A stretch of 64,000 nucleotides of DNA from positions 62,001 through 126,000 of the forward strand of contig JAFEMX010000009.1 in the NCBI GenBank assembly GCA_016892645.1. The letters are read 5' to 3'. Under the pieces are notes generated by a model. It saw only the letters and a program-made list of their open reading frames with translations, was not told the origin of the DNA and searched no databases. The position numbers and the translations under genes were made by a program. The DNA comes from Micrococcaceae bacterium RIT 802 (lineage in GTDB: Bacteria > Actinomycetota > Actinomycetes > Actinomycetales > Micrococcaceae). Within the stretch, counting starts at the first letter, position 1; each line of letters opens with the position of its first letter. Positions 32,472 through 47,506 of this stretch are shown here, piece by piece.

Positions 32472-33185
32472 TTACAGCGATGCGCCCCCGCAGATCGTCA
32501 ACGTCTGCCCGGTGATCGAGGAGCCGTGGGGGCCGAGCAGGAAGGCGACGAGTTCGGCGACGTCGGCGGGGTCGACCAGTTTTCCCAGGGCCGGGACCTT
32601 CGGCGGCACACCGGCCCGCCCGGGATCGTTGAGCATGGGGGTGTCAGTCGGCCCCGGGGCCACGACGTTGCAGGTGATCGACCGCGGTGCCAGCTCGATG
32701 GCCCAGCTGCGGCTCAGCCCGGACAACGCCGACTTGGTAGCCGCGTAGTGGCTCTTGCCGGCGACGCCGGTCATGGTCCGGCTGCCGACGAGGACCACGC
32801 GGCCGCCGTCGGAGATCCGCTCGGTGAGCGTGTCCACCAGGGCGGACGCCGCCTCCACGTGCACGGCGAACATCCCCCGCAGTGCCGCCGGATCCAGGGA
32901 GCCGAGCGGCGCCGTCGTCATGAATCCCGCGGCATGGACCACCGCGTCGACTGTACCCAGATGACTCAGCAGGCCAGGCAGGGCCTCCGGTGCGGAGAGG
33001 TCGGCGCGTAGCCATTCGAAGGTGCCCTCGTCTGCATCTCCCGTCTGTGGGTTTGCGTGCGGAGCGAAGCCGGGCTCGCGGCGGCTGAGCCCGGTGACCT
33101 TCCACCCGCCGGCCAACAGGGTGGTGGCGATGGCGTGCCCGATGCCGGAACTGCAGCCGGTGACGACCGCGTGGGGTGCCGTCAT
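32472..33185 (-). CDS. SDR family oxidoreductase, last gene of the sugar-acid operon
   Basis: A 237-residue classical short-chain dehydrogenase. TGCSSGIGHAIA is the NAD(P)-binding loop, VHAAGF replaces the common NNAG, and the catalytic set is Ser in LVGSRTM with YAATK. The C-terminal FLLGPHGSSITGQTLTICGG is typical. Its ATG overlaps the sialidase-like gene's stop by one base, so it is coupled to that operon. It likely oxidises or reduces a hydroxyl or keto intermediate of the imported compound. Confidence 0.9.
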   Translation of the reverse strand: MTAPHAVVTGCSSGIGHAIATTLLAGGWKVTGLSRREPGFAPHANPQTGDADEGTFEWLRADLSAPEALPGLLSHLGTVDAVVHAAGFMTTAPLGSLDPAALRGMFAVHVEAASALVDTLTERISDGGRVVLVGSRTMTGVAGKSHYAATKSALSGLSRSWAIELAPRSITCNVVAPGPTDTPMLNDPGRAGVPPKVPALGKLVDPADVAELVAFLLGPHGSSITGQTLTICGGASL

Positions 33186-34426
33186 CAGTCGGTGCCCCCG
33201 GCGTAGATCCATTCGGGGGAGACCCTGACGTACTTGATCGCCTGGCGGAAGTACGTGTACGCCAGCTGCAGCTGCCCGTCGGCGGTCTGGTGGATCGAGG
33301 GATAGGAGAACTCCCGGTTCAGGCCGTCGCGCGAGTTGTTGGACAGGCAGTAGCCGTCGCCGACCTCGAGGTCGCGGCGGATGGGCCACGTGTGCCCGCC
33401 ATCCTCCGAGACCGCGACGGTCAACGGCGCACGGGGAGTGCCCCAGAAGGCCTTCGGACCGTCGTCGGGCGCGCCGGCCGCGGGGGCCGGCGGTTCGGTG
33501 ACGGTTTCCTGGGTGTCTGCCAGCCCGTCGTCGTCGATCTCGTCATAGAGCGAGGCCCGGCGTTCGGTGTCGGCCTGGGCCTGGCTGTGGTTGTAGATCA
33601 GCGTCAGGCGGCCGTCGTCCAGCGGGGTGAACTGGATGGAGGAGTTGTTGTTCGGCAGCTCGGTCGGCACCGGTTCGCTCCACGTGGCCCCGCCGTCCGA
33701 GGAGCGGGAGGAGTAGATCCAGTCGGCCCAGCGGCTGCGGTACAGGGCCAGCAGGGTGCCATTGGCCAGCGGGTGGATGTTCATGTGCACGCACCCCAGG
33801 CTGCCGGGGACGACCTGCCGGGTCCAGGTGGCACCGTCGTCGTCGGAGACCATGACGGCGCTGTCATCCTGGTTGCCGACCCACTTCTCGCCGGGAACGA
33901 TGACGCACCGGAAGACGGGCACCAGCAGCCGGCCGTCCACGACGACCGGGGGCTGGCGGACGAAAACCCCGCCCTCATCGGTGGCCGGGAACAGGGTATG
34001 GGTCTCGCCCCAGGAGGCACCGCCGTCGTACGAGATGCGCCGGCGGACCTCGGAGGTGTCCTGGTTCCCGGCGTGTTGGGCGGTGTAGAGCAGCCAGGTC
34101 TCCTCGCCGTGGACGAAGAGGATGGGGTTCTGCTCGGAGCGGGTGGGGTCATCGCTCAGGCGCGCCGGCTCCGACCAGGCGGTGTCCCAGCCGGTGGCGG
34201 TGCGGCCGAGGGTGGAGAACCAGACGCTGATGTCCGGTACTCCCTCCTGGGTGCCGCCGAACCAGACGCAGCCGAGCCGGCCGTCAGGCAGGGTGGCGAG
34301 GTTGGCGGCGTGGGACTGCACGGTGGGGGCGGGCAGGTAGGCGAAGGCCAGGGCGTCGGCGTCGGGCCCTGTCAGCTCGTGCACCGTCCCGTCGGGGGTG
34401 ATGGCGTCATAGGCGGTGGTGGTCAT
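33185..34426 (-). CDS. Sialidase-superfamily (BNR/Asp-box) protein without signal peptide
   Basis: A 413-residue six-bladed propeller protein of the exo-sialidase superfamily. Four Asp-boxes are visible: SYDGGASWGE, SDDDGATWTR, SSDGGATWSE and SEDGGHTWPI. PTVQSHAANLATLPDGRLGCVWFGGTQEG is the usual N-terminal blade with an arginine-poor FRIP counterpart, so true sialidase activity is doubtful. There is no signal peptide, so it acts in the cytoplasm. Similar proteins occur in sugar-acid clusters, where they may act as lyases or hydrolases. GGGAG ribosome binding site. Overlaps the SDR gene by one base. Confidence 0.85.
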   Translation of the reverse strand: MTTTAYDAITPDGTVHELTGPDADALAFAYLPAPTVQSHAANLATLPDGRLGCVWFGGTQEGVPDISVWFSTLGRTATGWDTAWSEPARLSDDPTRSEQNPILFVHGEETWLLYTAQHAGNQDTSEVRRRISYDGGASWGETHTLFPATDEGGVFVRQPPVVVDGRLLVPVFRCVIVPGEKWVGNQDDSAVMVSDDDGATWTRQVVPGSLGCVHMNIHPLANGTLLALYRSRWADWIYSSRSSDGGATWSEPVPTELPNNNSSIQFTPLDDGRLTLIYNHSQAQADTERRASLYDEIDDDGLADTQETVTEPPAPAAGAPDDGPKAFWGTPRAPLTVAVSEDGGHTWPIRRDLEVGDGYCLSNNSRDGLNREFSYPSIHQTADGQLQLAYTYFRQAIKYVRVSPEWIYAGGTD

Positions 34427-34485
34427 GGTCTCTCCCGGGGTGGTGGTGGAAGCGGGTCGGCGGCCAGGGCGCGGGGCGGCGTGGT

Positions 34486-35274
34486 TCAGGCGGACAGGGC
34501 GGCGGCTGCGCGGGAGGCCTCCAGATGCGCGGCGGCGGCGATTTCCAGGTGGGTGAGGTCGGAGGCGACGGTGGCGAACGTGTAGCCGGACGCCAGGCGC
34601 TGCGCGGCGAGCTCGCCGGTGGCGTTGTGGATCCCGGCGGCGACGCCGGCGGCCTCGGCGGCGGCTGCGACGCGGACCAGCGCGGTGTCGAAGACCTCGG
34701 CGACGTCGGGGTCCCCGGGGAACCGGGCGCCCACGGCCAGGGCCAGGTCGGAGGGGCCGACGTAGACGCCGTCGAGCCCGGGGACGGCGGCGATGGCCTC
34801 GACGTTTTCCAACCCGGCGGGGGTCTCGATCATCGCGAACACCAGGGTGGCGGCATCGGCTTCGGCGGGCACGGGGCCGACCCGGAGGGCGGAGCGCATG
34901 GGGCCGTAGGAGCGGTCGCCGTGCGGCGGGTACTTCGCCGCCCGGACAGCGGCGGCGGCGTCCTCGGCGGTGTTGACCAGCGGGACGATGATGCCCACGG
35001 CGCCGGCGTCGAGCGCCTTGCCGATGGCCGTGGGGTTGTTGGCCTCCACGCGCACCATGCCGGCCGCGGTCTGCCCGGCGTCGATGGCCATCAGGCCCTG
35101 GAGCATGCCGGAGTAGCCGATCAGCCCGTGCTGGGCGTCCAGGGCGACGTAGTCGTAGCCGGTGCGGGCGATGCGTTCGGTGGACACGGGGGAGTCCAGC
35201 ACGATCCAGTAGCCGACGGCCTGCTCGCGGGCACGGATCTTGCGGGCGAATTCGGTGGCGACGGGGGAGGTCAT
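34486..35274 (-). CDS. HpcH/HpaI-family aldolase
   Basis: A 262-residue class II pyruvate aldolase. YDYVALDAQHGLIGYS contains the conserved D-x-Q/E-H-G segment, VRVEANNPTAIGKALDAGAVGIIVPLVNTAEDA is the core barrel with the catalytic Arg, and AMIETPAGLENVEAIAAVPGLDGVYVGPSDLA carries the metal-binding Glu and Asp. The family cleaves 4-hydroxy-2-oxo acids to pyruvate and an aldehyde. In this operon it fits cleavage of a 2-keto-3-deoxy-type sugar acid. The gene sits 59 bp before the sialidase-like gene and after the aldo/keto reductase. Confidence 0.93.
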   Translation of the reverse strand: MTSPVATEFARKIRAREQAVGYWIVLDSPVSTERIARTGYDYVALDAQHGLIGYSGMLQGLMAIDAGQTAAGMVRVEANNPTAIGKALDAGAVGIIVPLVNTAEDAAAAVRAAKYPPHGDRSYGPMRSALRVGPVPAEADAATLVFAMIETPAGLENVEAIAAVPGLDGVYVGPSDLALAVGARFPGDPDVAEVFDTALVRVAAAAEAAGVAAGIHNATGELAAQRLASGYTFATVASDLTHLEIAAAAHLEASRAAAALSA

Positions 35275-35357
35275 GGTTCCTGCTTTCGGTTCGGGGAGTG
35301 GAGGGGGACGTGGAGGAGGACGACGACGGTGCCCGGCTGGGCGGGCACCGGCCGGAC

Positions 35358-36356
35358 TTAGCGGTTGTAGGCGGGCATGGGGCCGCGCAGCGAGGCGCCG
35401 ACGGCATCGCACGCGGTGATGACATCGGCGGGCAGCGGGCCGGCGGAGATGGCGGCGATGTTCGATTCGAGCTGGGCGGGCTTGGAGCCGCCGAGCAGCA
35501 GCGAGTCGACGCCGGGGTGGTGGGCGAGCCAGCGCAGCGAGAGCTCGATGAGCGTCAGGCCGGCCTCGGCGGCGATCCCCGACAAGGCGTCGATCGCCTC
35601 GAACAGCGTCGCGTCCCAGTAGCGCTGCGTGTACATCGCCGCCAGCCGTGAATCGCCGAAGCGCCCCTCGGCGGGGCGCTCGCCGAAGCTGTGCTTCCCG
35701 GTGAGCAGGCCGCCGCCGAGCGGATTGTAGACCATGGTGCGCACGCCGTGGGAGGCGGCGAAGGGCAGGTATTCGTCCTCGATCCGGCGGGCCACCAGGT
35801 TGTAGAGCTGCTGGGCGACGACGGGGGCCGGCGCCCCGACGGCTGCCGCGGCGGCCTCGACGTCGGCGATCTGCCACGCCGCGTAGTTGGACACGCCCAG
35901 CGCCAGGATCTTGCCCTCGGCGGCCAGCTCGGCCACGGCGGTCAGGGTCTCCTCCAGCGGGGTGGAGTCGTCGGGCTGGTGCAGGTAGAACAGGTCCAGC
36001 CGGTCGGTACCCAGCCGGGACAGCGATGCCTCGACGCTGCGGCGCAGCGCTGCGCCGGAGAGCAGCGCGTCGTCGCCGGCATCGGGGTGCGGCATGCCGG
36101 CCTTCGAGGCGAGGAAGACCTCGTCCCGGCGGCCCCCCAGCAGGCGGGCGAGCATCTTCTCGGTCTCGCCGCCGACGTAGGCGTTGGCGGTGTCGATGTG
36201 GCGGATGCCGGCGTCGAGCGCGGTATCGAGCATCCGGGCGGCGGTGGCCTCGTCGACGGTGTCGCCGAACGTCATGGTGCCGAGCACCAGTCCGCTGTAG
36301 GGATCGGTGGCCGCGGCGGTCGTGCCGGCGGGTGAGGTCTGCGGGGTGGTCATCAT
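35358..36356 (-). CDS. Aldo/keto reductase
   Basis: A 332-residue NADPH-dependent TIM-barrel oxidoreductase. The catalytic tetrad is visible: Asp in HIDTANAYVGG (with Tyr), Lys in FLASKAG, and His in FYLHQPD. VYNPLGGGLLTGKH and the C-terminal LLLGGSKPAQLESNIAA bind the cofactor. It probably interconverts an aldehyde or ketone with an alcohol of the imported sugar-like substrate. It lies 46 bp downstream of dppF in the same operon and 83 bp upstream of the aldolase gene. Confidence 0.92.
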   Translation of the reverse strand: MMTTPQTSPAGTTAAATDPYSGLVLGTMTFGDTVDEATAARMLDTALDAGIRHIDTANAYVGGETEKMLARLLGGRRDEVFLASKAGMPHPDAGDDALLSGAALRRSVEASLSRLGTDRLDLFYLHQPDDSTPLEETLTAVAELAAEGKILALGVSNYAAWQIADVEAAAAAVGAPAPVVAQQLYNLVARRIEDEYLPFAASHGVRTMVYNPLGGGLLTGKHSFGERPAEGRFGDSRLAAMYTQRYWDATLFEAIDALSGIAAEAGLTLIELSLRWLAHHPGVDSLLLGGSKPAQLESNIAAISAGPLPADVITACDAVGASLRGPMPAYNR

Positions 36357-36402: not shown

Positions 36403-37233
36403 TCAGGCCGGGGTCTTCAGCGCCAGAGAGGACACCAGGTGGCGGGGTTTGATCCCCTCCATGGTGGCCGGATCGAGGGCTGCACGGCGCAGCCGCCGGG
36501 TGTAGTCCTCGCGCGGGGTGGCCAGCACATCGCCGGTCGTCCCGGCCTCCACGATCCGGCCCCGGCGCATCACCACGATCTCATCGCTGATCTCCTTCAC
36601 CACGCCCAGGTTGTGGGAGATGAAGACGTACGTGATGTCGGTGTCGCGCTGGATCTCCTGCAACAGCTCCAGCACCTGCGCCTGCACCGAGACGTCCAGC
36701 GCGCTGGTGGCCTCGTCGCAGACCAGCAGGTCGGGCGCCGACGCCAGGGCGCGGGCGATGCCGATGCGCTGGCGCTGTCCGCCGGAGAACTCGTTGGCCC
36801 GGCGCTCCAGCGACGACGCGGGCAGCCCGACGCGGTCGAAGAGCCGGCGGGCCTCGGCGCCGCGCTCGGCGGCCGAGCGGACACCCTGGATCCTCAGCGG
36901 TTCGGTGACGATGTCCTCGGCGCTCAGATGCGGGTCCAGGGAACCATAGGGATCCTGGAAGACCATCTGGAAGCGCTTGCGCAGCGGCCGCAATTTCGCG
37001 TCGTTGAGCGGGACCAGGTCGGTTCCATCGAGCACGATGCGCCCGGCGGTGGGCTGCAGCAACCGCATGACGGCCTTGGCGATCGTCGACTTGCCGCAGC
37101 CTGACTCGCCGACCACGGCCAGCGTGCTGCCGCGGGCGACGCTGAAGGACACGTCGTCCACCGCCCGGAAGGGGCCGGCCTTGGTGGCGTAGTCGACGGT
37201 GAGGTTTTCGACGGTGAGGAACGGCTCGGTCAC
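36403..37233 (-). CDS. ABC transporter ATP-binding protein, DppF/OppF-like
   Basis: A 276-residue ATPase of a peptide/opine/nickel-type (PepT family) importer. Walker A GESGCGKST at 42-50, Q-loop MVFQDPYGSLDP, signature FSGGQRQRIGIARAL, Walker B LLVCDEATSALD and switch FISHNLGVV. The C-terminus ends shortly after the EDYTRRL segment that binds the permease. It overlaps dppD by 4 nt (ATGA). It works with the partner ATPase and the two permeases below to import the ligand of the binding protein. Confidence 0.94.
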   Translation of the reverse strand: MTEPFLTVENLTVDYATKAGPFRAVDDVSFSVARGSTLAVVGESGCGKSTIAKAVMRLLQPTAGRIVLDGTDLVPLNDAKLRPLRKRFQMVFQDPYGSLDPHLSAEDIVTEPLRIQGVRSAAERGAEARRLFDRVGLPASSLERRANEFSGGQRQRIGIARALASAPDLLVCDEATSALDVSVQAQVLELLQEIQRDTDITYVFISHNLGVVKEISDEIVVMRRGRIVEAGTTGDVLATPREDYTRRLRRAALDPATMEGIKPRHLVSSLALKTPA

Positions 37234-38126
37234 GGTGTGCCTCCTGCGGCAGGTTCGACGACGGTGTCCACGCCGGTGGTTCCGGCACCGTCGAGCGGGC
37301 GTTCGTCCCAGGGACCGAGCTGCGGCACGGCACCCAGGAGCTTGCGGGTGTACTCCTCGCGGGGGTGGTCCACGATTGCGGAGGCCGGCCCGGATTCGAC
37401 GAACCGTCCGCTCTTCATCACGTGGATCGTATCGGAGACCAGGCGGGCGACCCCGATGTCGTGGGTGATCATCAGGATGCCGGTCCCGCGCTGTTCCTGG
37501 ATCTCCATCAGCAGGTCCAGGATCCCGGCCTGGACGGTGACATCCAGCGCCGACGTCGGCTCGTCCGCGATCAACAGTTCCGGTTCGCTCGCCAGCGCCA
37601 TGGCGATCAGCACGCGTTGGAGCATGCCGCCGGAGAGCTGGTGCGGGAACTTCTTCAACTGCGACGGCGGATCCGGGATGTGGACCGAGGCCAGCAGCTC
37701 GGATGCCCGGGTGGTGGCCTGGGTGCGGCCGCTCGTGCGTCCGGCGATCCGGATGGCCTCGACCAGCTGGCTGCCGATGGACAGCACCGGGCTGAGCGCG
37801 GTCATCGGGTCCTGGGGGATCAGGGCGACGGTGCGGCCGCGGACCTTGTTGATCGCCTTGCGGTTGCCGAGCACGTCCAGGCCGGTGACGCGGACGGTGC
37901 CGGAGAGGATGGCGAGGTCCTGGGGCAGCAGCTGCAGGATGCCCATCGCGGTGGTGGACTTGCCGGAGCCCGACTCGCCGATGATGGTCACGGTCTCACC
38001 CCGGCCGACCCGGAAGGTGGCCCCGTCGACGGCGCGGACGATGCCGTTGTCGGTCATCAGTTCGACGACGAGGTCCTCGACGTCGAGCAGCGGCGTTGCG
38101 GCGGCTGCTTCATGCTGCGGGTTCAT
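37230..38126 (-). CDS. ABC transporter ATP-binding protein, DppD/OppD-like
   Basis: A 298-residue ATPase: Walker A GESGSGKST at 50-58, ALIPQDPMTALSPVL Q-loop, signature LSGGMLQRVLIAMAL, Walker B LLIADEPTSALD and MITHDIGVA. The oligopeptide-type C-terminal Fe-S cysteine region is absent; the protein ends with a short GTTGVDTVVEP tail. ATGA overlaps with both dppC upstream and dppF downstream show tight coupling. It pairs with DppF as a heterodimer. Confidence 0.94.
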   Translation of the reverse strand: MNPQHEAAAATPLLDVEDLVVELMTDNGIVRAVDGATFRVGRGETVTIIGESGSGKSTTAMGILQLLPQDLAILSGTVRVTGLDVLGNRKAINKVRGRTVALIPQDPMTALSPVLSIGSQLVEAIRIAGRTSGRTQATTRASELLASVHIPDPPSQLKKFPHQLSGGMLQRVLIAMALASEPELLIADEPTSALDVTVQAGILDLLMEIQEQRGTGILMITHDIGVARLVSDTIHVMKSGRFVESGPASAIVDHPREEYTRKLLGAVPQLGPWDERPLDGAGTTGVDTVVEPAAGGTP

Positions 38127-39061
38127 CGGGTCGCTCCTTTCGTGCGCTTGGCGCGGGGCTTGCGGTCGCGCAGGCCGTCGCCGAGCAGGTTCACGCCGAT
38201 GACCAGCAGGGCGATCATCAGGCCGGGCAGGGTCACCATCCACCAGGAGGTGGTGACGTAGTCCTGGCCGTCGGAGATGATCCGCCCCCAGGTGGCGAAC
38301 GGACGTTGCGGTCCGGCCCCGAGGAAGCTCAGTGCGCTCTCGAGCAGCACGGCCTGGGCCAACAGCAGCAGGACGACGAGGGAGGCCTGCTTGAACACGT
38401 TGGGGATGACGTGGCGGATGAGGATCTGGATCTTGTGCAGGCCCAGGATCCGGGCGGCCGACACGTAGGGCTTTTCGCGTTCGACCAGGACCAGCGACCG
38501 GGTCAGCCGGGCCACTTCTGGCCATTGGGCGATGGCGATGACGAACGTGATGACGGGGATCGACGGGCCGAAGAGGGCGACGACCAGCAGGAGCATCATC
38601 AGCAGGGGAAGCGACATCTGCGCTTCCAGGACGCGGGAGATGATGATGTCCACCCATTTGCCGTAGAAGCCGGCGGCGGCCCCGAGGATGATGCCGATGG
38701 CACCGGAGACGACGACGGCGAGCACGCCGATGGTCAGCGACACCTGCCCGCCGTGCAGGACGCGGGAGAGCAGGTCACGGCCGAGCTGGTCGGTGCCGAA
38801 CAGGTGGCCGGCGACCAGCGGGGCGAGTCGGCGCTGGGACAGGTCCTGTGCGTTCGGGTCCGCCAGCGGCAGGACCTGGGCGAACACGATGGGCAGGAAC
38901 ACCACGAGGGTGCAGATCGCCCCGATCCAGAGTTTGATCTTCGTGGACCGGGCCCGCCGGGTGGCGGCCGAGGTGGCCAGGTCGCGGGCGGTGACGCCGC
39001 TGGGGCGCGCGCTGCGTTCCGGCATGGTCCCGGCCAGGGGAGGGGTGGTGGTGGCGCTCAT
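38123..39061 (-). CDS. ABC transporter permease, DppC/OppC-like
   Basis: A 312-residue integral membrane protein with six helices. An N-terminal helix at about 40-62 is followed by a periplasm-facing stretch with HLFGTDQLGRDLLSRVLHGGQVSLTIG, typical of DppC. The EAA loop reads YVSAARILGLHKIQILIRHVIPNV, and the end SFLGAGPQRPFATWGRII is family-typical. It forms a channel with DppB. The gene overlaps both neighbours by 4 nt. Confidence 0.94.
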   Translation of the reverse strand: MSATTTPPLAGTMPERSARPSGVTARDLATSAATRRARSTKIKLWIGAICTLVVFLPIVFAQVLPLADPNAQDLSQRRLAPLVAGHLFGTDQLGRDLLSRVLHGGQVSLTIGVLAVVVSGAIGIILGAAAGFYGKWVDIIISRVLEAQMSLPLLMMLLLVVALFGPSIPVITFVIAIAQWPEVARLTRSLVLVEREKPYVSAARILGLHKIQILIRHVIPNVFKQASLVVLLLLAQAVLLESALSFLGAGPQRPFATWGRIISDGQDYVTTSWWMVTLPGLMIALLVIGVNLLGDGLRDRKPRAKRTKGATR

Positions 39062-39993
39062 GCTGTGGCCGCCTTTCCGAGTCGAACGCGGGGATCGAGG
39101 AGCGGGTAGGCCAGGTCGATCAGCAGCTGGACGCCGACGGCGAGCAGCGCGGTGATCAGCACGGCGGCCTGGATGAGGGGATAGTCGCGGGTCTCCAGGG
39201 CCCGGACGATCAGCGAACCGACGCCGGGCCAGGCGAAGACGACCTCGACGACGACGACGCCGTTGAGCATCGCGGCGAACCGGGTGCCCAGAGCGGTGAA
39301 CACCGGGATGGCGGCATTGCCCATGGCGTAGCGCCAGGTGAGCATGCCCTCGCTGACGCCGCGGGAGCGGGCCACTGTCAGGTAGGGGGCCGAGAAGTTC
39401 GTGGTCATTTCGCGGCGGACCATGCGCGAGACCAGGGCGACCTGGAGGATGGCGATGGTGATCGCCGGAAGGGCGAGCCCGCTCCAAGTCGTGAAGCCGG
39501 AGGCCGGGAAGATCGGCAGCAGGACGGAGAAGCCGGTCAGCAGCATGATGCCGGTCCAGAAGTCGGGCATGGACTGGCCGGTGATCGTCAGCATGTTCAC
39601 GCCGAGTTCCTGGCCGGTGTCGGTGCGCCGGGCCATCCACACGCCGAGCGGGATCGCGATGATGGCCGCAAGCACGATGGCCGCCGTGGCCAGGGTCAGC
39701 GTGTAGGGGAGCCGTTCGAGGACCACCTGGGCGGCGGGGGCCTGGAAGGAGTAGGACGTGCCGAGGTTTCCGGTGAAGAGCTGCTGGAGGAACATCCAGT
39801 ATTGGGCCAGCAGCGGGCGGTCCAGGCCGAACTGTTCGCGGACCGCGGCGAGTTGTTCATTGGTGGCCAGCGGTCCGGCATAGGCAGCAGCCGGGTCCCC
39901 GGGGGCCATGCGGATCAGCAGGAAGACCGTCGAGACCGTCAGGAAGACGGTCAGCAGCCCCTGGCCGACGCGTTTGGGTAGGTAGGTCAACAT
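39058..39993 (-). CDS. ABC transporter permease, DppB/OppB-like
   Basis: A 311-residue integral membrane protein with six helices: TM1 in residues 10-30 (VFLTVSTVFLLIRMAPGDP), then the large loop with LDRPLLAQYWMFLQQLFTGNLGTSYS, and the EAA loop APYLTVARSRGVSEGMLTWRYAMGNA. The last helix leads to PLLDPRVRLG. It starts 2 nt after the stop of the binding-protein gene and overlaps dppC by 4 nt. Complete length for the family. Confidence 0.94.
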   Translation of the reverse strand: MLTYLPKRVGQGLLTVFLTVSTVFLLIRMAPGDPAAAYAGPLATNEQLAAVREQFGLDRPLLAQYWMFLQQLFTGNLGTSYSFQAPAAQVVLERLPYTLTLATAAIVLAAIIAIPLGVWMARRTDTGQELGVNMLTITGQSMPDFWTGIMLLTGFSVLLPIFPASGFTTWSGLALPAITIAILQVALVSRMVRREMTTNFSAPYLTVARSRGVSEGMLTWRYAMGNAAIPVFTALGTRFAAMLNGVVVVEVVFAWPGVGSLIVRALETRDYPLIQAAVLITALLAVGVQLLIDLAYPLLDPRVRLGKAATA

Positions 39994-39995
39994 GG

Positions 39996-41570
39996 TCAGG
40001 CCTCCAACGTGACAGCGGAGAGCGGATAGGAATTGGCCGAGGAGAGGGCCAGGTGGTCGACGCGTTCGCGCCGGGCCAGCACCGACTTGGGGACGAACGC
40101 CCAGGCGCACGGCCAGGTGTCCCAGACGGCCTGCTGGGCCTGGGCCAGCAGCTTGTTCCGGGCGGCCTCGTCGACCTCGGAGGCGGCGCGGGCGATCTTC
40201 GCGGCGACGGCCTCGTTCACGTACCCCTGGTAGGTGTCGCGGGTCTTCTCCTTGGCAGGGGTGCCCGCGTACATGCCCTGGAGCATGGTGATGGCCAGGC
40301 CGGTGGGGCTGGAGAAGCCGTTGCCGAGCAGGTCCCAGTCTCCGGTCTTGCCCTGGCGCCATTGCAGGATGTTGCCGCCGGGTTCGAATTGCTGCAGCTG
40401 GGTGCGCACGCCGATGTCGGCGTACATGTCGGACAGGGCCTCCATGATGGAGGTGTCGGCCGGGAACTCGCCGGTCTCCCAGATGATCTTCAGCGTCAGG
40501 TTGTCCACGCCGAGGTCCTTCAGCCGCTTCTTCGCCTGCGCCGGGTCGTAGACGTAGTCCCCGGTCTTGGCGTAGCCGAACAGCGAGGAGGGGGTGACGC
40601 CCTCGGCCTGGGTGACCGAGTCCATCAGCACGTCACGGACCAGGGACTTGCCGTCGATCGCCATCGAGAGGGCCTGGCGGACCTTCGGGTCGGAGAGCGG
40701 GTGGCTCTTCGGCTTGCGGAAGTTGTAGAAGATCTGGTTCAGGCGCAGGCTGGAGGCCCGGTCGATCGCCACCCCCGGCAGGCCGGCGAGCTGTTCGCCG
40801 GAGTCGGGGGAGATGGAGTCGATGACGTCGACCTCGCCCGAGCGCAGGGAGATGACCCGGCTGGATTCCTCGGGCAGGAACCGGACGTTGACCCGCTCGA
40901 TTTGCGGGCGTTCGCCCCAGTACTTCTCGTTGCGGACCAGCGAGTAGGTGCCGGTGCCGCGGTTGAAGGTCTCCACCGTGTAGGGGCCCGTTCCGACGCC
41001 GGTCTGCAGCTCCGCGGCCTTGTTGTCCTTGGCGGGGGTGATGAGGATCAGTGCCATGAGCGCGTCGAGGATCGGCACGGGGCGTTCGGTGTCGAGGTAG
41101 AAGGTGCGCTCGTCCTTCGGGACCACCGTGGGGAACTCCGGGAAGAAGCTGGCCACGAAGGATCCCTGGACCTTTTCGTACATCTTCAGCGCGGTCGCCA
41201 CATCCTCGATCTGCACCGGCGTTCCATCGGAATACTGGATGCCCTGGCGCAGGGTCACGGTCCAGCGGGTGGGCGAGGTCAACTCGAAGCGTTCGGCCAG
41301 GACGGGGACGGGCTTGATGTCCGGACCGATTTCGGTCAGGCCCTGCCGAACGGCGCGCTGGACCGTGACGGCTGCGTCGAACTGGTTGAGCTTGTTGTCC
41401 AGGCTGACCAGGGAACGGTTCAACGCCAGGGTCAAGGTAGCCGGGCCCGGCAGACCGGTGGGGCCGGCGCAGGCAGTGGTCGAGCCGACGCCGAGCAGGA
41501 GGCCGCCGGCTGCTCCCCACCGCAGCAATTGCCGGCGGGACAAGGTGGATCCAGTGAGTGGAACGGTCAT
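39996..41570 (-). CDS. ABC transporter substrate-binding lipoprotein (family 5)
   Basis: A 524-residue solute-binding protein of the oligopeptide/opine SBP_bac_5 family. It has a twin-arginine start (SRRQLLRWG) and a hydrophobic run ending in a lipobox-like GSTTAC, so it is probably a membrane-tethered lipoprotein. RWTVTLRQGIQYSDGTPVQIEDV and TGPYTVETFNRG are family signatures. Despite the family name many members bind sugars, so the ligand here may be an oligosaccharide or sugar-acid conjugate. Two adjacent ATG codons exist; the second gives better spacing to GAGAGG. First gene of a nine-gene operon, divergent from the kinase fusion gene. Confidence 0.92.
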   Translation of the reverse strand: MTVPLTGSTLSRRQLLRWGAAGGLLLGVGSTTACAGPTGLPGPATLTLALNRSLVSLDNKLNQFDAAVTVQRAVRQGLTEIGPDIKPVPVLAERFELTSPTRWTVTLRQGIQYSDGTPVQIEDVATALKMYEKVQGSFVASFFPEFPTVVPKDERTFYLDTERPVPILDALMALILITPAKDNKAAELQTGVGTGPYTVETFNRGTGTYSLVRNEKYWGERPQIERVNVRFLPEESSRVISLRSGEVDVIDSISPDSGEQLAGLPGVAIDRASSLRLNQIFYNFRKPKSHPLSDPKVRQALSMAIDGKSLVRDVLMDSVTQAEGVTPSSLFGYAKTGDYVYDPAQAKKRLKDLGVDNLTLKIIWETGEFPADTSIMEALSDMYADIGVRTQLQQFEPGGNILQWRQGKTGDWDLLGNGFSSPTGLAITMLQGMYAGTPAKEKTRDTYQGYVNEAVAAKIARAASEVDEAARNKLLAQAQQAVWDTWPCAWAFVPKSVLARRERVDHLALSSANSYPLSAVTLEA

Positions 41571-41684
41571 CATCGACCTCTCGGTTCGTGAAGGGAAGTC
41601 CAGCGGGTGATGCGGCCAGATGCCGCCGGTGAAGACTCGCGGAACCTGCCCAGAAGATGTTGTGTCCGTCACTCTGCCATAGCT

Positions 41685-41726
41685 GCGCGTTGTGCGCAAT
41701 ACGTGTAGCGCGATTCGCGCAATCCG
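41685..41726. promoter_or_regulatory. Paired operators of the putative DeoR regulon (site pair 1)
   Basis: Two copies of GCGCR-N4-GCGCAATNCG lie head-to-tail at 41685-41703 (GCGCGTTGTGCGCAATACG) and 41708-41726 (GCGCGATTCGCGCAATCCG), 23 bp apart centre to centre. They sit in the 206-bp divergent promoter region between the ABC operon and the kinase fusion. The same motif in reverse orientation occurs at 44917-44958. The adjacent DeoR regulator is the likely binder. Confidence 0.7.
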
Positions 41727-41776
41727 TGTCATGATGGCTATCAGACCTACATCATGAGCGGGAGGAGGAAGCGAAC

Positions 41777-43996
41777 ATGCACCACGTTCTGGTCATCGCC
41801 GATGACTTCACCGGTGCCTGCGAAGTGGCGGCGCAGTGGTACGACGCCGGTTCCCGGACCGTGATCCGGTTGCGCGACGACGCCCGCTCCGCCACGGCTG
41901 CAGACGTCCTGGTCGTCGACACCCATTCACGCCAGCTTCCCGCGGACTTGGCCCGCCGCGCCGTCGTGGACCGGCTGCCCGCAACCATCTTCCCGGACAC
42001 CGTGCTGTTCAAGAAGATCGACTCGCTCTGGCGGGGGCACGTTGCCGTGGAACTCGAGGCCTTCGCCGCCGCCGGATACCGGCTGGTCATCGCCGGCGCG
42101 TTGCCCGACCACGGACGGACGGTCGTCGGCGGGGTCCCCCTGGTCGACGGGCAGCCACTTGCCGACACGGGATTGTGGCAGGTGGAGAACCGCCGCGCAC
42201 CGGCCTCCGTCCGTGAAGCCATAGGATCGTTGTCCGCCATCGGAATCGGCGTGGACCAGGTCCGGGACGGCAGCCTCCACGACCATCTGGCTAATGCCGT
42301 GGCCGCACATGAAGCAGTCATCGTGGACTGCGAGACCGCCGCGGATCTAGATGCCATCGCCGGAGCCTTCGCCGCAATGGCGGACGGACGCAACCAACAC
42401 CCCGTGGCCCTGGTCGGCACGGGCGCACTGGCCCGTTCGCTCGCACAGGTCATGGCACGCACCGCCTCGCTGCATCCAGTAGATCCCTCCACTCGATCCG
42501 CCACAGGGCAGCGGGCCATCCTCACCGTCGTCGGCTCGGCCAGCACCAAGGCCGGCGAACAGATTTGCCACCTCGAAGCCGCGGGCATCCCCGTCTTCCC
42601 GGCCGCCCACGCCGAAGCCGCCGCCCGGGTCCTGGCCTCCGGGTCCGCCGCTGCCCTCGTGGCCGATGCGACCACGCTCCGCGACCCCGCCGAAGCCCAC
42701 CGGGACATGGAGGCGGCCGTGGCCACGGCCTTGGCCGCGGCGCCGGACGCGGACCTGGTCCTGACCGGCGGCGAGACGGCCCGCGCCGTCCTGGACCGCC
42801 TGGGCATCAACGAACTCGTACCCCTGCAGCAAATCCAACACGGTGTTGTCATCTCCCGCGCCGACGACGGCCGCCTGGTCGCCGCCAAGCCGGGCACCTT
42901 CGGCACCGCCACCGTCCTCACCGAAGCCATCCACTCGCTGCGCGCCCTGCGCGCGGCCCCCACACCCCCGGGAGATCCCATGGAAGCAACCACCACCGAC
43001 CCGCGCCCCTTCATCGCCGTCACCATGGGGGACGGCGCCGGCGTCGGCCCCGAGGTCACCGTCGGCGCCCTGCTGGACGAACGCGCCTATCGCGAATGCC
43101 GCCCGGTCGTCATCGGCGACACCCACCGCCTCCGCCTGGGCGCGGCGGCGCTCGGCCTCACCGCCGACATCGTGGAGATCCAGGCCGTCTCCGAGGCGGT
43201 CTTTATCCCCGGCACCATCAATGTCATCGATCCGCACCTGCTCTCGGAGGATCTGCCGTGGGGCCGCGAATCCGCCGAGGCCGGGAACGCCGCCTACCAC
43301 TACATCCGGATCGCCTGCGAGCTCGGCATGGCCGGTGACGTCCAGGGCATCTGCACCGCACCGCTGAACAAGGCCGCATTGCACAGCGCCGGGCACATCT
43401 ACCCCGGGCACACCGAGCTGCTGGCCCACTTCATGGGCGTCGACGAGGTCTCCATGATGCTCTCCACCCCGAAGGTCAAGGTCATCCACGTGACCACCCA
43501 CGTCGGGCTGATCGACGCCATCGCGCGCATCGAACCCGGCCTCGTCGAGCGCACCGTCCGCCGCGGCCATGAGGCCCTGGTCCGCTCCGGCGTCGCCAAC
43601 CCCAAGATCGGTGTCTGCGCCATCAACCCGCACGCCGGGGAGAACGGCCTGTTCGGCTATGGCGAGGAAGAAGAAAAGATCATCCCGGCCCTGGAAGTGC
43701 TCCGCGCGGACGGGATCGACGCCATCGGACCGCTGCCCGCCGACACCGCCTTCTTCCTGGCCGGCCGCGGCGACTACGACCTCATCGTGGCCATGTACCA
43801 CGACCAGGGCCACGGCCCGGTGAAGGTCCTCGGCATCGAGGCCGGCGTCAACATCACCGTCGGCCTGCCGGTCATCCGCACCTCGGTCGACCACGGCACC
43901 GCGTTCGACATCGCCGGGACCGGCGTCGTGGAGGTGGGTAGCATGATCGAAGCACTACACCAGGCCACCAACCTTTCGCCGAGCCCGGTCCACTGA
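41777..43996 (+). CDS. Fusion of DUF1537 four-carbon acid sugar kinase and PdxA-like dehydrogenase
   Basis: A 739-residue protein joining two enzymes normally encoded apart. Residues 1 to about 395 are the DUF1537 kinase: HHVLVIADDFTGACEVAAQWYDAG at the N-terminus, KKIDSLWRGHVAVELEAFAAA, and ATP-site LVLTGGETARAVLDRLGI and KPGTFGTATVL at the end. Residues about 410-739 are PdxA-like: VTMGDGAGVGPEV, TAPLNKAALHSAG, YPGHTELLAHF with metal-binding His, and VAMYHDQGHGPVKVLG. Together they would phosphorylate a 4-carbon acid such as threonate or erythronate and oxidise the phosphate to dihydroxyacetone phosphate plus CO2. An internal ATG at 42980 with GGGAG upstream could also give free PdxA. Ribosome binding site GGAGGA. 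Confidence 0.9.
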   Translation: MHHVLVIADDFTGACEVAAQWYDAGSRTVIRLRDDARSATAADVLVVDTHSRQLPADLARRAVVDRLPATIFPDTVLFKKIDSLWRGHVAVELEAFAAAGYRLVIAGALPDHGRTVVGGVPLVDGQPLADTGLWQVENRRAPASVREAIGSLSAIGIGVDQVRDGSLHDHLANAVAAHEAVIVDCETAADLDAIAGAFAAMADGRNQHPVALVGTGALARSLAQVMARTASLHPVDPSTRSATGQRAILTVVGSASTKAGEQICHLEAAGIPVFPAAHAEAAARVLASGSAAALVADATTLRDPAEAHRDMEAAVATALAAAPDADLVLTGGETARAVLDRLGINELVPLQQIQHGVVISRADDGRLVAAKPGTFGTATVLTEAIHSLRALRAAPTPPGDPMEATTTDPRPFIAVTMGDGAGVGPEVTVGALLDERAYRECRPVVIGDTHRLRLGAAALGLTADIVEIQAVSEAVFIPGTINVIDPHLLSEDLPWGRESAEAGNAAYHYIRIACELGMAGDVQGICTAPLNKAALHSAGHIYPGHTELLAHFMGVDEVSMMLSTPKVKVIHVTTHVGLIDAIARIEPGLVERTVRRGHEALVRSGVANPKIGVCAINPHAGENGLFGYGEEEEKIIPALEVLRADGIDAIGPLPADTAFFLAGRGDYDLIVAMYHDQGHGPVKVLGIEAGVNITVGLPVIRTSVDHGTAFDIAGTGVVEVGSMIEALHQATNLSPSPVH

Positions 43997-44025
43997 TGCC
44001 GGGCCGGCGCGGAACAGGAGCAAAC

Positions 44026-44826
44026 ATGTCCATCGGCGCACGCCAGCGCAGGGACGACATCGTGCTCCTGGCCCACACCAGCGGCCTGACCAGCGTCGAG
44101 GAACTCTCGGCCCGCTTCGATGTCACCGCCTCCACGATCCGCCGCGACCTCGCCCGGCTGACCGGCGAGGGCAAGATCGCCCGCACCTACGGCGGCGCCA
44201 TGGCGCTGACCGGCAACGGCGGGGAATCCACCTTCCGCCAGCGCAACCAGGAGGCAGCCGCCGCCAAGCGCGCCATGGCCCGCCTGGCCCGGGCCCTCGT
44301 GCACGACGGCGAATCCATCCTCCTCGACGCCGGCTCCTCGGTCGCGGCGCTGGCCACCGAGCTGCAGCACGACATCTCGCTCACCGTCGCCACCACCTCG
44401 TTGGCGGTCCTGGAGGAGCTGGCCGAGGTCGACGCCATCCACGTCGAGTGCCTCGGTGGCACGCTGCGCCATCCCAGCCAGGGATTCGTCGGCCCGCTGG
44501 CCGAGGCCGCCCTGGAGCGCATGACGTTCGACCGGGTGTTCCTCGGCGCTGACGGTGTGGCCGTGGGCTCGATCTGCGAGGCGGACCTGCAGCAGACCCG
44601 GCTCAAGGAGATGATGTGCCGGCAGGCCCACGAGGTCGTGGTGCTGGCTGATGCCTCCAAGCTCGGGGCGGCGCCGTTCCACGCCTGGGCCAAGCTGCCC
44701 GAACGCTGGACGCTGGTCACCGACGATTCCGCGACCGAGGAACAACTGGAACCGTTCCGTGAGGCCGGTGTCTCCGTGCTGGTGGCGACCGCGCCGACGT
44801 TGGCCGAGGTGCGCGCCCGGGCGTAA
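44026..44826 (+). CDS. DeoR/GlpR-family transcriptional regulator
   Basis: A 266-residue DeoR-type repressor. The N-terminal helix-turn-helix reads RRDDIVLLAHTSGLTSVEELSARFDVTASTIRRDLARLTGEGKIARTYGGA. The C-terminal sugar-phosphate sensor domain (DeoRC) has DGESILLDAGSSVAALA, VATTSLAVLEELAEVD, GGTLRHPSQGFVGPLAEAAL, DRVFLGADGV and ADASKLG. The start follows ACAGGAG. It is 29 bp downstream of the kinase fusion and likely senses a phosphorylated intermediate. The paired operators on both sides (41685-41726 and 44917-44958) fit this protein. Confidence 0.93.
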   Translation: MSIGARQRRDDIVLLAHTSGLTSVEELSARFDVTASTIRRDLARLTGEGKIARTYGGAMALTGNGGESTFRQRNQEAAAAKRAMARLARALVHDGESILLDAGSSVAALATELQHDISLTVATTSLAVLEELAEVDAIHVECLGGTLRHPSQGFVGPLAEAALERMTFDRVFLGADGVAVGSICEADLQQTRLKEMMCRQAHEVVVLADASKLGAAPFHAWAKLPERWTLVTDDSATEEQLEPFREAGVSVLVATAPTLAEVRARA

Positions 44827-44916
44827 TCGGCTCCTCCCGCCACGGAGCAAGAAACCATCAGCCACTCCGTGGCCAGGTGGGAACGCCAATACCCTCCCGG
44901 GGTGAATCCGTGTCAC

Positions 44917-44958
44917 CAAATTGCGTGCAATGCGCGTCGCAAATTGCGCGGTGCGCGC
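44917..44958. promoter_or_regulatory. Paired operators of the putative DeoR regulon (site pair 2)
   Basis: Two reverse-orientation copies of the motif: CAAATTGCGTGCAATGCGC at 44917-44935 and CAAATTGCGCGGTGCGCGC at 44940-44958, again 23 bp apart centre to centre. They lie 116-157 bp before the Nramp-like gene. An AT-rich GCATTAAGGTTAACC follows, perhaps the promoter core. Confidence 0.7.
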
Positions 44959-45073
44959 ATTAAGGTTAACCTTTCGTGAGCGGGGTCACGCCTTTCGGCG
45001 AGCCAATCATGACTTTCAGGGGCCATTGCCCCAGCCCTCGAGGCATCCGAATATTCCGTCAAAGGAGACAGAA

Positions 45074-46489
45074 ATGACTGCGACTTCAACGCGATCGGCG
45101 AGATCGGCCGATGCGGTCGATCCCTACGCGCTCCGGAATGAGGACGTCAAAACCGCGCCCCGCCGGTTCAGGGACCGGTTCCGCTATCTCGGTCCGGGGA
45201 TCGTGCTCTCGGCAGCAGTCGTCGGGTCCGGTGAACTCATCACGACCACCGCGCTGGGAGCCAAGGCAGGTTTCGTATTGCTGTGGCTGGTCATCATCTC
45301 GACCGGCATCAAGGTGTGGGTCCAGATGGAACTGGCGCAGTGGTCGATCCTGACGGGCAAGACCGCCCTGCAGGGATACAGCCAGGTTGCCCCGCGCACC
45401 CGGCGGGGAAGCTGGATCAACTTCCTGTGGATCCTGATGGACTTCGCAAAGATCCTGCAACGGGGCGGGATCATCGGTGGAACCGTCGCCGCCCTGTCGA
45501 TCATGTTCCCCGTCCTCGGCGCACCGCTGGAGACACCATCGCTGGTGTTCTGGACCATCATCGTCACCGGTTCGGTCATCACTCTGCTGGCCAGCGGGCG
45601 CTACAGCATTGTCGAGCGCGTGGCCTTCGCCTCCGTCGTCGCCTTCACGCTGATCACCGTCGGGTTGGCCGTCGTGCTTCCCCTGACCGATTTCGGCTAC
45701 AGTACCGCCGACATCGGTTCCGGCATGAGCTTTGTCCTCCCGGCCGGCGCCGTTGGCTTCGCCGTGGCCATGTTCGGCTTGACGGGTGTCGGCTCGGATG
45801 AAATGACCACCTACACGTACTGGTGCATCGAAAAGGGATACGCGCGCTGGACCGGCCCCGATGACGGCACCGAAGAGCGCGCGGAACGTGCCGCCGGATG
45901 GATCAAGGTCATGCGCCTGGACGTTTTGATCTCGTGGATCATCTGCACGTTGTGCACGCTGTCGTTCTACGTCATCGGCGCATCCGTGCTGCACCCCCAG
46001 GGCCTGGTCCCGGAGGGCGACGACATGATCGTGACGCTGTCGCGCATGTATTCGGACACCATGGGCCAGTTCGGCTATTGGGTCTTCCTCGTCGGGGCGT
46101 TTGGAGTCCTGTTCTCCACCCTGGTTGCCTCCACGGCATCCGTACCCCGGTTGTGGACCAATACGTTGGCCATCCTCGGGGTCTTCGATTGGACGGATCT
46201 GCGCACGCGCCGTCGGATCATCTCGGCCCTGACGATCGTCCTGCCGATCATTTGGGCCGCCAGCTTCCTCGTCATCAAGTCGCCGGTCGTCATGGTGATG
46301 ATCGGTGGCCTGGGATCGGCAGGATTCCTGATTGCCGTGGTCATCGCGGTGTGGACGCTGCGCGGTCAGGTGGATCGCCGCTTCCGCAGTAGCCCGCTGT
46401 GGACCATCCTCCTGGCTTTCAGTAGTCTCGCGGTGACGTTCATCGGCGTCTATTCGGCGATGAAGGTCTTTGGTATCGAGATCGGCTAG
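45074..46489 (+). CDS. Nramp-superfamily transporter lacking the metal motif
   Basis: A 471-residue membrane protein with about 11 helices, clearly Nramp-like (LeuT fold): RYLGPGIVLSAAVVGSGELITTTALGAKAGFVLLW covers TM1. Canonical divalent-metal Nramps have DPGN-x-x-T in TM1 and MPH in TM6; here TM1 reads GSGELITTT and TM6 reads FGLTGVGSDEMTTYTYW, so neither metal motif is present. It therefore probably carries something else. The position behind the DeoR operators suggests an organic acid or other small substrate of the same regulon. AAAGGAG ribosome binding site. Confidence 0.85.
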   Translation: MTATSTRSARSADAVDPYALRNEDVKTAPRRFRDRFRYLGPGIVLSAAVVGSGELITTTALGAKAGFVLLWLVIISTGIKVWVQMELAQWSILTGKTALQGYSQVAPRTRRGSWINFLWILMDFAKILQRGGIIGGTVAALSIMFPVLGAPLETPSLVFWTIIVTGSVITLLASGRYSIVERVAFASVVAFTLITVGLAVVLPLTDFGYSTADIGSGMSFVLPAGAVGFAVAMFGLTGVGSDEMTTYTYWCIEKGYARWTGPDDGTEERAERAAGWIKVMRLDVLISWIICTLCTLSFYVIGASVLHPQGLVPEGDDMIVTLSRMYSDTMGQFGYWVFLVGAFGVLFSTLVASTASVPRLWTNTLAILGVFDWTDLRTRRRIISALTIVLPIIWAASFLVIKSPVVMVMIGGLGSAGFLIAVVIAVWTLRGQVDRRFRSSPLWTILLAFSSLAVTFIGVYSAMKVFGIEIG

Positions 46490-46555
46490 AGGGACCGCTG
46501 GAGAGTGCCGAAACCCATGTCAACGACCGTCCCCACAACTTCAGAAGGAGTGACC

Positions 46556-47506
46556 ATGGAGGTCCTCATCACCACTCCGAGCTTCGGCCGGCAATCCAAC
46601 GAACCATGGGAAGCGCTGGATGACGCAGGGGTGGTGGTGCGCCGGCCGCAGGCCGCGCACCCGCTTGACCCCACGCAACTGGCCAACGAAGCCAGCGATG
46701 TCCCTGCGATCATTGTCGGACTCGACGAAGTGGACAAGTCGGTCTTCTCTGCGCTTCCGTCCTTGAAGGTCGTGGCGAAACATGGGGTCGGGGTCGATAA
46801 CATCGACCTCGATGCCGCCCGTGCCGCTGGTGTGCGCGTCGTCAATGCGCCGGGTGCCAACGCAGGTGCGGTGGCGGACCTGACGCTGGGTGCCATGCTG
46901 TCCATTGCCCGCCAGCTTCCTGCAGCACATCGCTCCATGCTTGAAGGGCGCTGGGAGACGTTCCCCGGGGTCGAATTGGGCGGGCGGAAGTTGGGCATCC
47001 TGGGATTCGGCCGGATTGGCCAAGGCGTCGCGCAGCGGGCCCGCGCCTTCGGCATGGAAGTCGTTGCCTACGACCCCTATGTGCCGGACGAGGTCATGGT
47101 CGCCGCAGGCGTGAAACCCGATGGTCTGGACGAGGTGGTGGCAATCGCCGACTTCCTGACGCTTCACCTGCCGGGAGATCCGGACGCCGCTCCCTTGCTT
47201 AGCCCTGAGCGGATGGAATCCATGAAGCGCGGGGTATTCCTCATCAATGCGGCACGCGGTGGGCTCATTGATGAGGGACACCTCGTGAAGTTGCTTGCGG
47301 ATGGACACGTGGCCGGTGCCGCACTCGACGCCTTCGCCCAGGAGCCCTTGGGCAAAGACCATCCGCTTCTGTCGGCGGGCAACGTGCTGCTGACGCCTCA
47401 CATTGGCGCCTATACGGATCGTGCCAACGCTGCGATGGGAACCTCGGTCGCCCACGATGTCGCCAGGGTGCTGCGCGGGGAGGAACCGGTCAACGCCGTC
47501 GTTTAG
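46556..47506 (+). CDS. D-isomer-specific 2-hydroxyacid dehydrogenase
   Basis: A 316-residue NAD-dependent dehydrogenase of the SerA/GyaR-type family. The NAD-binding motif is GILGFGRIGQGVAQRA; the catalytic Arg lies in INAARGGLIDEGHL, Glu in FAQEPL and His in LTPHIGAYTD. It interconverts a D-2-hydroxyacid and the 2-keto acid. The ATG at 46556 is preceded by AAGGAG at 5 nt. It lies 66 bp after the transporter gene, so transport and oxidation of a hydroxy acid are probably linked. Confidence 0.92.
   Translation: MEVLITTPSFGRQSNEPWEALDDAGVVVRRPQAAHPLDPTQLANEASDVPAIIVGLDEVDKSVFSALPSLKVVAKHGVGVDNIDLDAARAAGVRVVNAPGANAGAVADLTLGAMLSIARQLPAAHRSMLEGRWETFPGVELGGRKLGILGFGRIGQGVAQRARAFGMEVVAYDPYVPDEVMVAAGVKPDGLDEVVAIADFLTLHLPGDPDAAPLLSPERMESMKRGVFLINAARGGLIDEGHLVKLLADGHVAGAALDAFAQEPLGKDHPLLSAGNVLLTPHIGAYTDRANAAMGTSVAHDVARVLRGEEPVNAVV

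Follow-up and report, generated by a model that had tools for sequence, protein, structure and literature searches.

VdtR of Brucella is described as a DeoR-family repressor of an erythronate aldolase-DUF1537 cluster, which binds several truncated fragments of its promoter and whose binding is not affected by free acids (PMC10580937). YgbI of Escherichia coli, associated with the ygbJK operon, is reported to possess one binding place, situated between ygbI and ygbJ and overlapping the ygbJ promoter (PMC8464067). The locus considered here lies within a 64,000-nucleotide stretch of the genome of Micrococcaceae bacterium RIT 802 (contig JAFEMX010000009.1, positions 62,001 to 126,000; termed the window, in whose coordinates all positions are given), where two pairs of short palindromic sites accompany a DeoR-family gene (deoR), an ATP-binding cassette (ABC) transporter operon, a fused DUF1537-PdxA gene, and a gene encoding an Nramp-like transporter. 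Tandem operators are a property of DeoR regulators such as GlpR and UlaR, multimeric repressors acting on several operators, the sequences of which presumably differ from those in the window. It is considered highly probable, as judged from the sequence, that the DeoR-family repressor encoded between the sites binds the pairs over the -35 elements of three promoters.

The four sites share the common motif GCGCR-N5-CGCAAT and form two pairs with a spacing of 23 bp in each. The first pair, situated in the divergent promoter between the ABC operon and DUF1537-PdxA-deoR, was identified by sequence reading and motif scanning and consists of O1, a 17-bp palindrome (CTGCGCGTTGTGCGCAA, 41683-41699, centre 41691; 16-mer GCGCGTTGTGCGCAAT at 41685-41700, + strand), and O2 (TAGCGCGATTCGCGCAA, 41706-41722, centre 41714; 16-mer GCGCGATTCGCGCAAT at 41708-41723, + strand). 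The second pair, located 3' of deoR and before the Nramp-like gene, consists of O3, its weaker half (44921-44937, centre 44929; 16-mer GCGCATTGCACGCAAT at 44920-44935, - strand), and O4 (TTGCGCGGTGCGCGCAT, 44944-44960, centre 44952; 16-mer GCGCGCACCGCGCAAT at 44943-44958, - strand). A preliminary description of this DNA had placed four sites, in two pairs, at these locations, and an exact motif scan re-found them there, while the intervals it gave proved 3 bp longer than the common motif and one site reads ACGCAAT rather than GCGCAAT. Its distance of 23 bp was reproduced upon re-measurement of both pairs, yet this corresponds to 2.2 helical turns at 10.5 bp per turn rather than exactly two, and its statement that the pairs bracket the DeoR gene is best reworded, in that the second pair precedes the Nramp-like gene and deoR is presumably part of the operon that follows the first. 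The 21 bp surrounding O1 differ from those of genome G052 at a single position.

The distinctive feature of these sites is the pair, rather than the single site. The double motif at the same spacing, with up to three mismatches, occurs at two places in the window, a number reached in none of 100 window shuffles, and the same two places, both at this locus, are the only ones in the 3.87-Mb genome (reversed-pattern control, 0); the earlier contention that four equally spaced matches would scarcely arise by chance is thus upheld, and the pair is not frequent in the genome. Eight exact copies of the motif are present in 3,866,216 bases, four of them at this locus (reversed-pattern control, 0), and the other four all lie inside open frames, one in oppF within the window and three outside it, in seemingly unrelated frames which, as read by eye without a family search, would encode a formyltetrahydrofolate ligase (contig C4), a secretion-type protein (C5), and a sigma factor (C35). 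Relaxed single sites are common, as the motif with one mismatch was found seven times in the window against 5.3 expected, which represents no enrichment, and the looser palindrome with up to three mismatches occurs 233 times in the genome versus 183 in the control; a single-site genome scan was consequently discarded as a means of finding regulon members. Such near-background frequencies are what would be anticipated if the sites were chance GC-rich palindromes in a window of ~67% GC, but as the genome has no further pair of this kind and the pairs recur in other families and orders, this explanation is regarded as extremely improbable.

Orthologues of the DeoR protein (E value up to 1e-50) were detected in 41 of 396 genomes of the order, and the regions around all 41 were read; a related-locus search with the DeoR protein alone had returned one distant relative (32%). 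A symmetric weight matrix with the core TTGCGC-N5-GCGCAA was derived from 15 sites of these loci and one further relative, and, under an automatic rule (score of at least 12, within 450 bp in front of a target-gene match), the palindrome was found before the same genes in 38 of the 41 genomes. The remaining three harbor a site just outside this rule, which was found by hand at the start of the binding-protein frame (G011), 83 bp ahead of an additional frame with which the kinase operon begins (G412), or ~450 bp before a partial kinase match (G067). Because the matrix was trained on sites from these loci, the count is partly circular, and 18 genomes of other orders were therefore employed as held-out data: a site scoring at least 11 precedes a target gene or deoR in 15 of them, and the other three (L169, L170, and L176) probably lack the promoter, their contigs terminating within the operon or near it. 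The palindrome is thus found, as had been anticipated, in the target promoters of the regulator's orthologues, the characteristic of a DeoR-type operator, although these genome counts do not represent independent events, since 12 of the genomes belong to one genus (g37).

Additional palindromes were observed within the kinase operon. The closest relative, G286, carries a strong palindrome between its DUF1537 and PdxA matches (L083, 8505), and others are located within the first part of the DUF1537 gene or close to its start (L020, 5619; L094, 7345; L087, 12622; L098, 7485; L177, 7723; L180, 12882; L182, 7659/7692; L183, 7650/7683), at ~175-220 bp from the promoter site and mostly in lineages with one clear promoter site. 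These could be looping operators or a consequence of the coding sequence.

The reading of the sites as operator pairs was sustained in the relatives, but the exact distance of 23 bp was not, the spacing being lineage specific (21, 22, 23, or 30-33 bp) and the site sometimes single. Among 61 automatically picked sites, the best partner with a score of at least 6 lies at 21-23 bp in 40 cases (43 if any score is admitted), the corresponding numbers for 56 hand-listed promoters from 42 genomes being 43 and 47, as against 3/1120 and 56/1120 in shuffled flanks of the latter set. Of the 61 automatic sites, 10 are absent from the hand-listed set, for the most part secondary ones lacking a close partner, while five entries are new to it (L022, L084, L091, L158, and the second Nramp-like gene of L096). 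When grouped by family, the spacing is mostly 23 bp in f1 and f13, 21-22 bp in f6, 21-23 bp in f14, and 30 bp in the f11 genome, while in f17 one of four partners reaches a score of 6 (at 23 bp). At the 14 Nramp promoters of the order, the best partner is located at 22-23 bp in 12 instances, at 30 bp in one, and at 52 bp in L117, which also possesses a partner of score 9.0 at 22 bp. In the other orders the palindrome is kept, with partners mostly at 31-33 bp or absent; held-out promoters displayed 22 bp once (L168) and 31 or 32 bp in L172 (weak), in L173, and twice in L179, and 33-bp pairs are present inside the kinase gene of L175, L182, and L183, the shuffled control for held-out pairs having produced one pair in five rounds. 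Spacings are thus mostly near two or three helical turns, as would suit a pair of dimers sharing approximately one helix face. An exact two-turn spacing as a general rule was rejected, as 21 and 22 bp together are commoner than 23 bp and as 30-33 bp and single sites occur.

The left half of the gene-proximal site (TTGCGC, TAGCGY, TTGCAC, etc.) constitutes a -35-like hexamer. Among 70 promoter directions, 58 have NANNNT at a distance of 17-18 bp behind it (shuffled mean 5.2, maximum 15), with TGn before NANNNT in 54 of 70 (shuffled mean 0.28, maximum 3); actinobacterial -10 boxes read TANNNT, and TGn marks an extended -10. The 70 directions leave aside L022, L089, L090, L100, L106, L158, and the second Nramp-like gene of L096, together with the direction toward the aldo/keto reductase (AKR) gene at L088 and the f13 loci and that toward the HpaI gene at L089, L090, and L097. 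In the window, the predicted promoter of DUF1537-PdxA-deoR (41706-41735, + strand) would comprise a -35 TAGCGC inside O2 (41706-41711) and, after 18 bp, a -10 CATGAT (41730-41735), and that of the ABC operon (41671-41699, - strand) a -35 TTGCGC inside O1 (41699-41694) and, after 17 bp, a -10 CAGAGT (41676-41671). The predicted promoter of the Nramp-like operon (44944-44972, + strand) would comprise a -35 TTGCGC inside O4 (44944-44949) and, after 17 bp, a -10 TAACCT (44967-44972) without TGn.

Several observations weigh against paired binding by this repressor over the -35 elements. Partners occur, more rarely, at 19, 38, 41-43, and 51-52 bp, and a single clear promoter site is seen in f15 (two genomes), in three of four cases in f17, and in the held-out family f38, the pair therefore not being essential everywhere. 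No -10 element is present at 17 or 18 bp in 12 of the 70 promoter directions, and at six f13 loci the palindrome is located ~35-45 bp before the AKR start codon, too close for a promoter of this kind. Cooperative binding is suggested by the spacing alone. Of the 14 Nramp promoters, five have an upstream open frame of like direction and five one of opposite direction, the remaining four being ambiguous, so that a role of the second site as the -35 of a different gene is clearly excluded in only 5 of 14; the idea that every relative has a one-way Nramp promoter was dropped for this reason. One may argue that the second site is a by-product of back-to-back promoters, each needing a TTGCGC -35, and that the repressor binds each site alone. 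Each palindrome of a divergent promoter does carry one -35, and the lineages with a single site and the five Nramp promoters facing an opposite upstream frame would agree with this explanation, which is nonetheless deemed unlikely given that the pair is kept in L096, L111, L112, L115, and the window even though the upstream frame runs the same way. The frame in question in the window is deoR, which has the direction of the Nramp promoter, and the second palindrome there is therefore no other gene's -35. The spacings, furthermore, are for the most part 21-23 or 30-33 bp, with no partner of score at least 6 at 26-29 bp among the promoters examined.

A further observation that weighs against the DeoR protein as the cognate regulator concerns the distant-DeoR loci L023-L026 (32-42% identity), one of which, L025, with a DeoR of 39% identity, contains two palindromes 31 bp apart; because of this pair, the motif may be common to a wider DeoR group. 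It would also be compatible with binding of the palindromes by another regulator of the genome, of which the DeoR gene would be a mere neighbor. This alternative we hold to be very unlikely, as the motif accompanies the DeoR orthologue in the order and beyond it at the frequencies given above, while at eight Nramp-like loci that do not adjoin this DeoR gene (including two from genomes carrying it at another place) no pair and one weak single site were found.

From the sites, their spacing and conservation, their co-occurrence with the DeoR gene, and the promoter-like geometry, we infer the following mode of repression by the DeoR protein. A dimer would bind each 17-bp palindrome TTGCGC-N5-GCGCAA, and two dimers, probably forming a tetramer, would occupy a pair at nearly the same helix face. 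The bound repressor would block RNA polymerase at the -35, as the gene-proximal palindrome contains the -35 hexamer. At the divergent promoter, O1 would cover the -35 of the ABC operon and O2 that of the DUF1537-PdxA-deoR operon, occupancy of O2 leading to autoregulation of deoR, which is a member of the presumed operon behind it, and the O3/O4 pair would silence a presumed operon of the Nramp-like and hydroxyacid dehydrogenase genes. The inducer releasing the repressor is most likely a phosphorylated four-carbon acid-sugar intermediate, a suggestion based on the behavior reported for VdtR, which binds several promoter fragments and is indifferent to free acids (PMC10580937).

The regulator itself (266 amino acids [aa]; 44026-44826, + strand) belongs to the DeoR family according to Pfam (HTH_DeoR, PF08220, 51.7 bits, cut-off 21; DeoRC, PF00455, 140 bits, cut-off 31.8), while none of ten NCBIfam equivalog models, including YgbI, AgaR, SrlR, GlpR, UlaR, and DeoR, reaches its cut-off (AgaR, 176.8, cut-off 260; YgbI, 96.6 bits, cut-off 400). 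Its gene is located ~30 bp behind that of a 739-aa protein (41777-43996, + strand) in which domain matches identify a DUF1537-type acid-sugar kinase (SBD_N and NBD_C) fused to a PdxA dehydrogenase, the combination of DUF1537 kinase and PdxA-type dehydrogenase that marks the four-carbon acid-sugar pathway. Among the models applied to this protein, the general PdxA model TIGR00557 (4-hydroxythreonine-4-phosphate dehydrogenase) is the sole one passed (340.7, cut-off 290.35), the scores for D-threonate kinase (119.9, cut-off 450), 3-oxo-tetronate kinase (70.1, cut-off 350), and D-threonate 4-phosphate dehydrogenase (323.1, cut-off 583) all being below the cut-off. On the opposite side of the divergent promoter, the peptide/nickel-type ABC transporter (36403-41570, - strand) is encoded by genes for a binding protein (39996-41570), two permeases, and two ATPases, behind which the same strand specifies an AKR, an HpaI-type aldolase, and a BNR-repeat protein (33185-36356). 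Downstream of the second pair lie the gene for the Nramp-related transporter of 471 aa (45074-46489, + strand) and that for a D-2-hydroxyacid dehydrogenase (46553-47506, + strand; start codon provisional).

The Nramp-like protein belongs to the Nramp superfamily (Pfam PF01566, 51.5 bits, cut-off 29.8) but lacks the DPGN motif in transmembrane helix (TM) 1 and the MPH motif in TM6 which define the canonical Nramp metal transporters (clades A-C). The DPGN of canonical Nramp aligns to GSGE, part of a GxGE motif that is invariant in 23 sequences (the window protein and 22 relatives), and around the MPH position the Nramp-like group displays GV(G/A)xxExTxYTYW, the MPH stretch being opposite GSDEMTTYTYW, a TM6 correspondence that is approximate because the profile comparison of the two Nramp groups is weak (probability 45%). 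The predicted structure (mean pLDDT 77.9, pTM 0.77) gave TM scores of 0.64 with EleNRMT and 0.65 with DraNramp (8e60), its first matches, and 0.67 with a model of YcsG. EleNRMT is described as an Mg2+ carrier without the DPGN and MPH motifs, and the 2026 preprint reporting it refers to all Nramp-related groups besides the NRMT-like and MntG-holding ones as entirely uncharacterized (PMC12873925).

The distribution of transporters bears on the role of this protein. Across 59 loci with this DeoR, an ABC transporter only is present in 21, an Nramp-like gene only in 14, both in one (the window), and neither, within the stretch read, in 23, the latter number including G277, where the Nramp-like gene is on a separate contig with its own operator. 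In the 15 genomes besides that of the window which carry the Nramp-like gene, no close relative of the ABC binding protein was detected, the only match at an E value up to 1e-30 being 30% identical (G131); conversely, the search for an Nramp-like gene (E value up to 1e-80) covered, of the 21 ABC-only genomes, the 11 that belong to the order, and found none when up to four candidates were scored in each. The genomes with an Nramp-like gene represent four families, and the number of independent events is therefore small. This mutual exclusion suggests that the ABC and Nramp-like transporters do the same job. We tentatively propose, with slightly less than even confidence, that the Nramp-related protein of the GxGE/GVGxxExTxYTYW group carries the four-carbon acid sugar or a close derivative, and not metal, and that it stands in functionally for the peptide-type ABC transporter which this repressor controls in other lineages.

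It is also a real possibility, if one to which we are somewhat disinclined, that the Nramp-like gene belongs to the regulon in order to import a divalent metal for PdxA or the dehydrogenases instead of an acid sugar. The first match by E value among solved folds is EleNRMT, the Mg2+ carrier which is likewise described as lacking both motifs (PMC12873925). The Nramp-like protein passes NCBIfam model NF037982, named divalent metal transporter, and the ABC binding protein matches a nickel-binding model best among those of NCBIfam, but with a score of 145.8, far below the cut-off of 600. Against import of a metal stand the GxGE and GV(G/A)xxExTxYTYW motifs at the places of DPGN and MPH, as well as the surroundings of other group members: in a survey of ten open frames chosen by hand from six of eight loci, zinc-type dehydrogenases or a xylose-isomerase-like gene adjoin the Nramp-like gene in three of the six, while, of the remaining three, one exhibits genes of the cation-efflux and DinB types, one a WYL regulator, and one no recognizable neighbor.

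Other Nramp-like genes were encountered in the course of the analysis. A second, different one is located beside the same DeoR locus in G386 (L111, 17999-19117, - strand) and in G356 (L096, 11949-13064, - strand), with operator-like sites ~210-330 bp upstream of the domain match. In two f35 genomes (L171 and L172), an Nramp-like gene and a hydroxyacid dehydrogenase gene are in line with aldolase and aldo/keto reductase genes, divergent from deoR, and no ABC matches are present in the stretch read. The genome of the window contains another Nramp-like gene (42% identity; L160, contig C36, 156358-157731) flanked on both sides by zinc-type dehydrogenase genes and close to a TetR-like gene, a place where no operator pair is present.

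Taken as proposed, the locus shows which operator sequence and which promoter geometry characterize a DeoR regulon for the use of acid sugars that several families of the window's class possess, and members of this regulon would be predictable from paired sites in the DNA. The operator would also link a functionally uncharacterized group of the Nramp superfamily with one particular carbon pathway, and it cautions against the automatic name of divalent metal transporter for this protein, which, if the proposed role is true, would be a non-metal carrier with the SLC11 fold. Nothing bearing directly on such an operator, or on a connection of Nramp with acid sugars, appeared in the literature searches made.

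The regulation itself would follow the known DeoR-type pattern, and the unexpected part is the presence of an Nramp-like gene under the operator. As in the proposal made here, VdtR is a DeoR-family repressor of a DUF1537 kinase cluster, but its gene set is given as ltnD, otnK, otnI, denD, otnC, and mfs, and those parts of its description that were compared give no operator sequence and name neither Nramp-like nor ABC genes (PMC10580937). YgbI is likewise a DeoR-family repressor adjoining an acid-sugar cluster, with its site over a promoter, and differs in that its description, as far as it was compared, gives one binding site and no tandem palindromes (PMC8464067). EleNRMT, from what is reported of it, has the same fold as the Nramp-like protein, both being devoid of DPGN and MPH (PMC12873925). 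What sets the gene of the window apart from Nramp-related proteins such as EleNRMT is its position downstream of a likely operator for acid-sugar use and its tendency to take the place of an ABC transporter.

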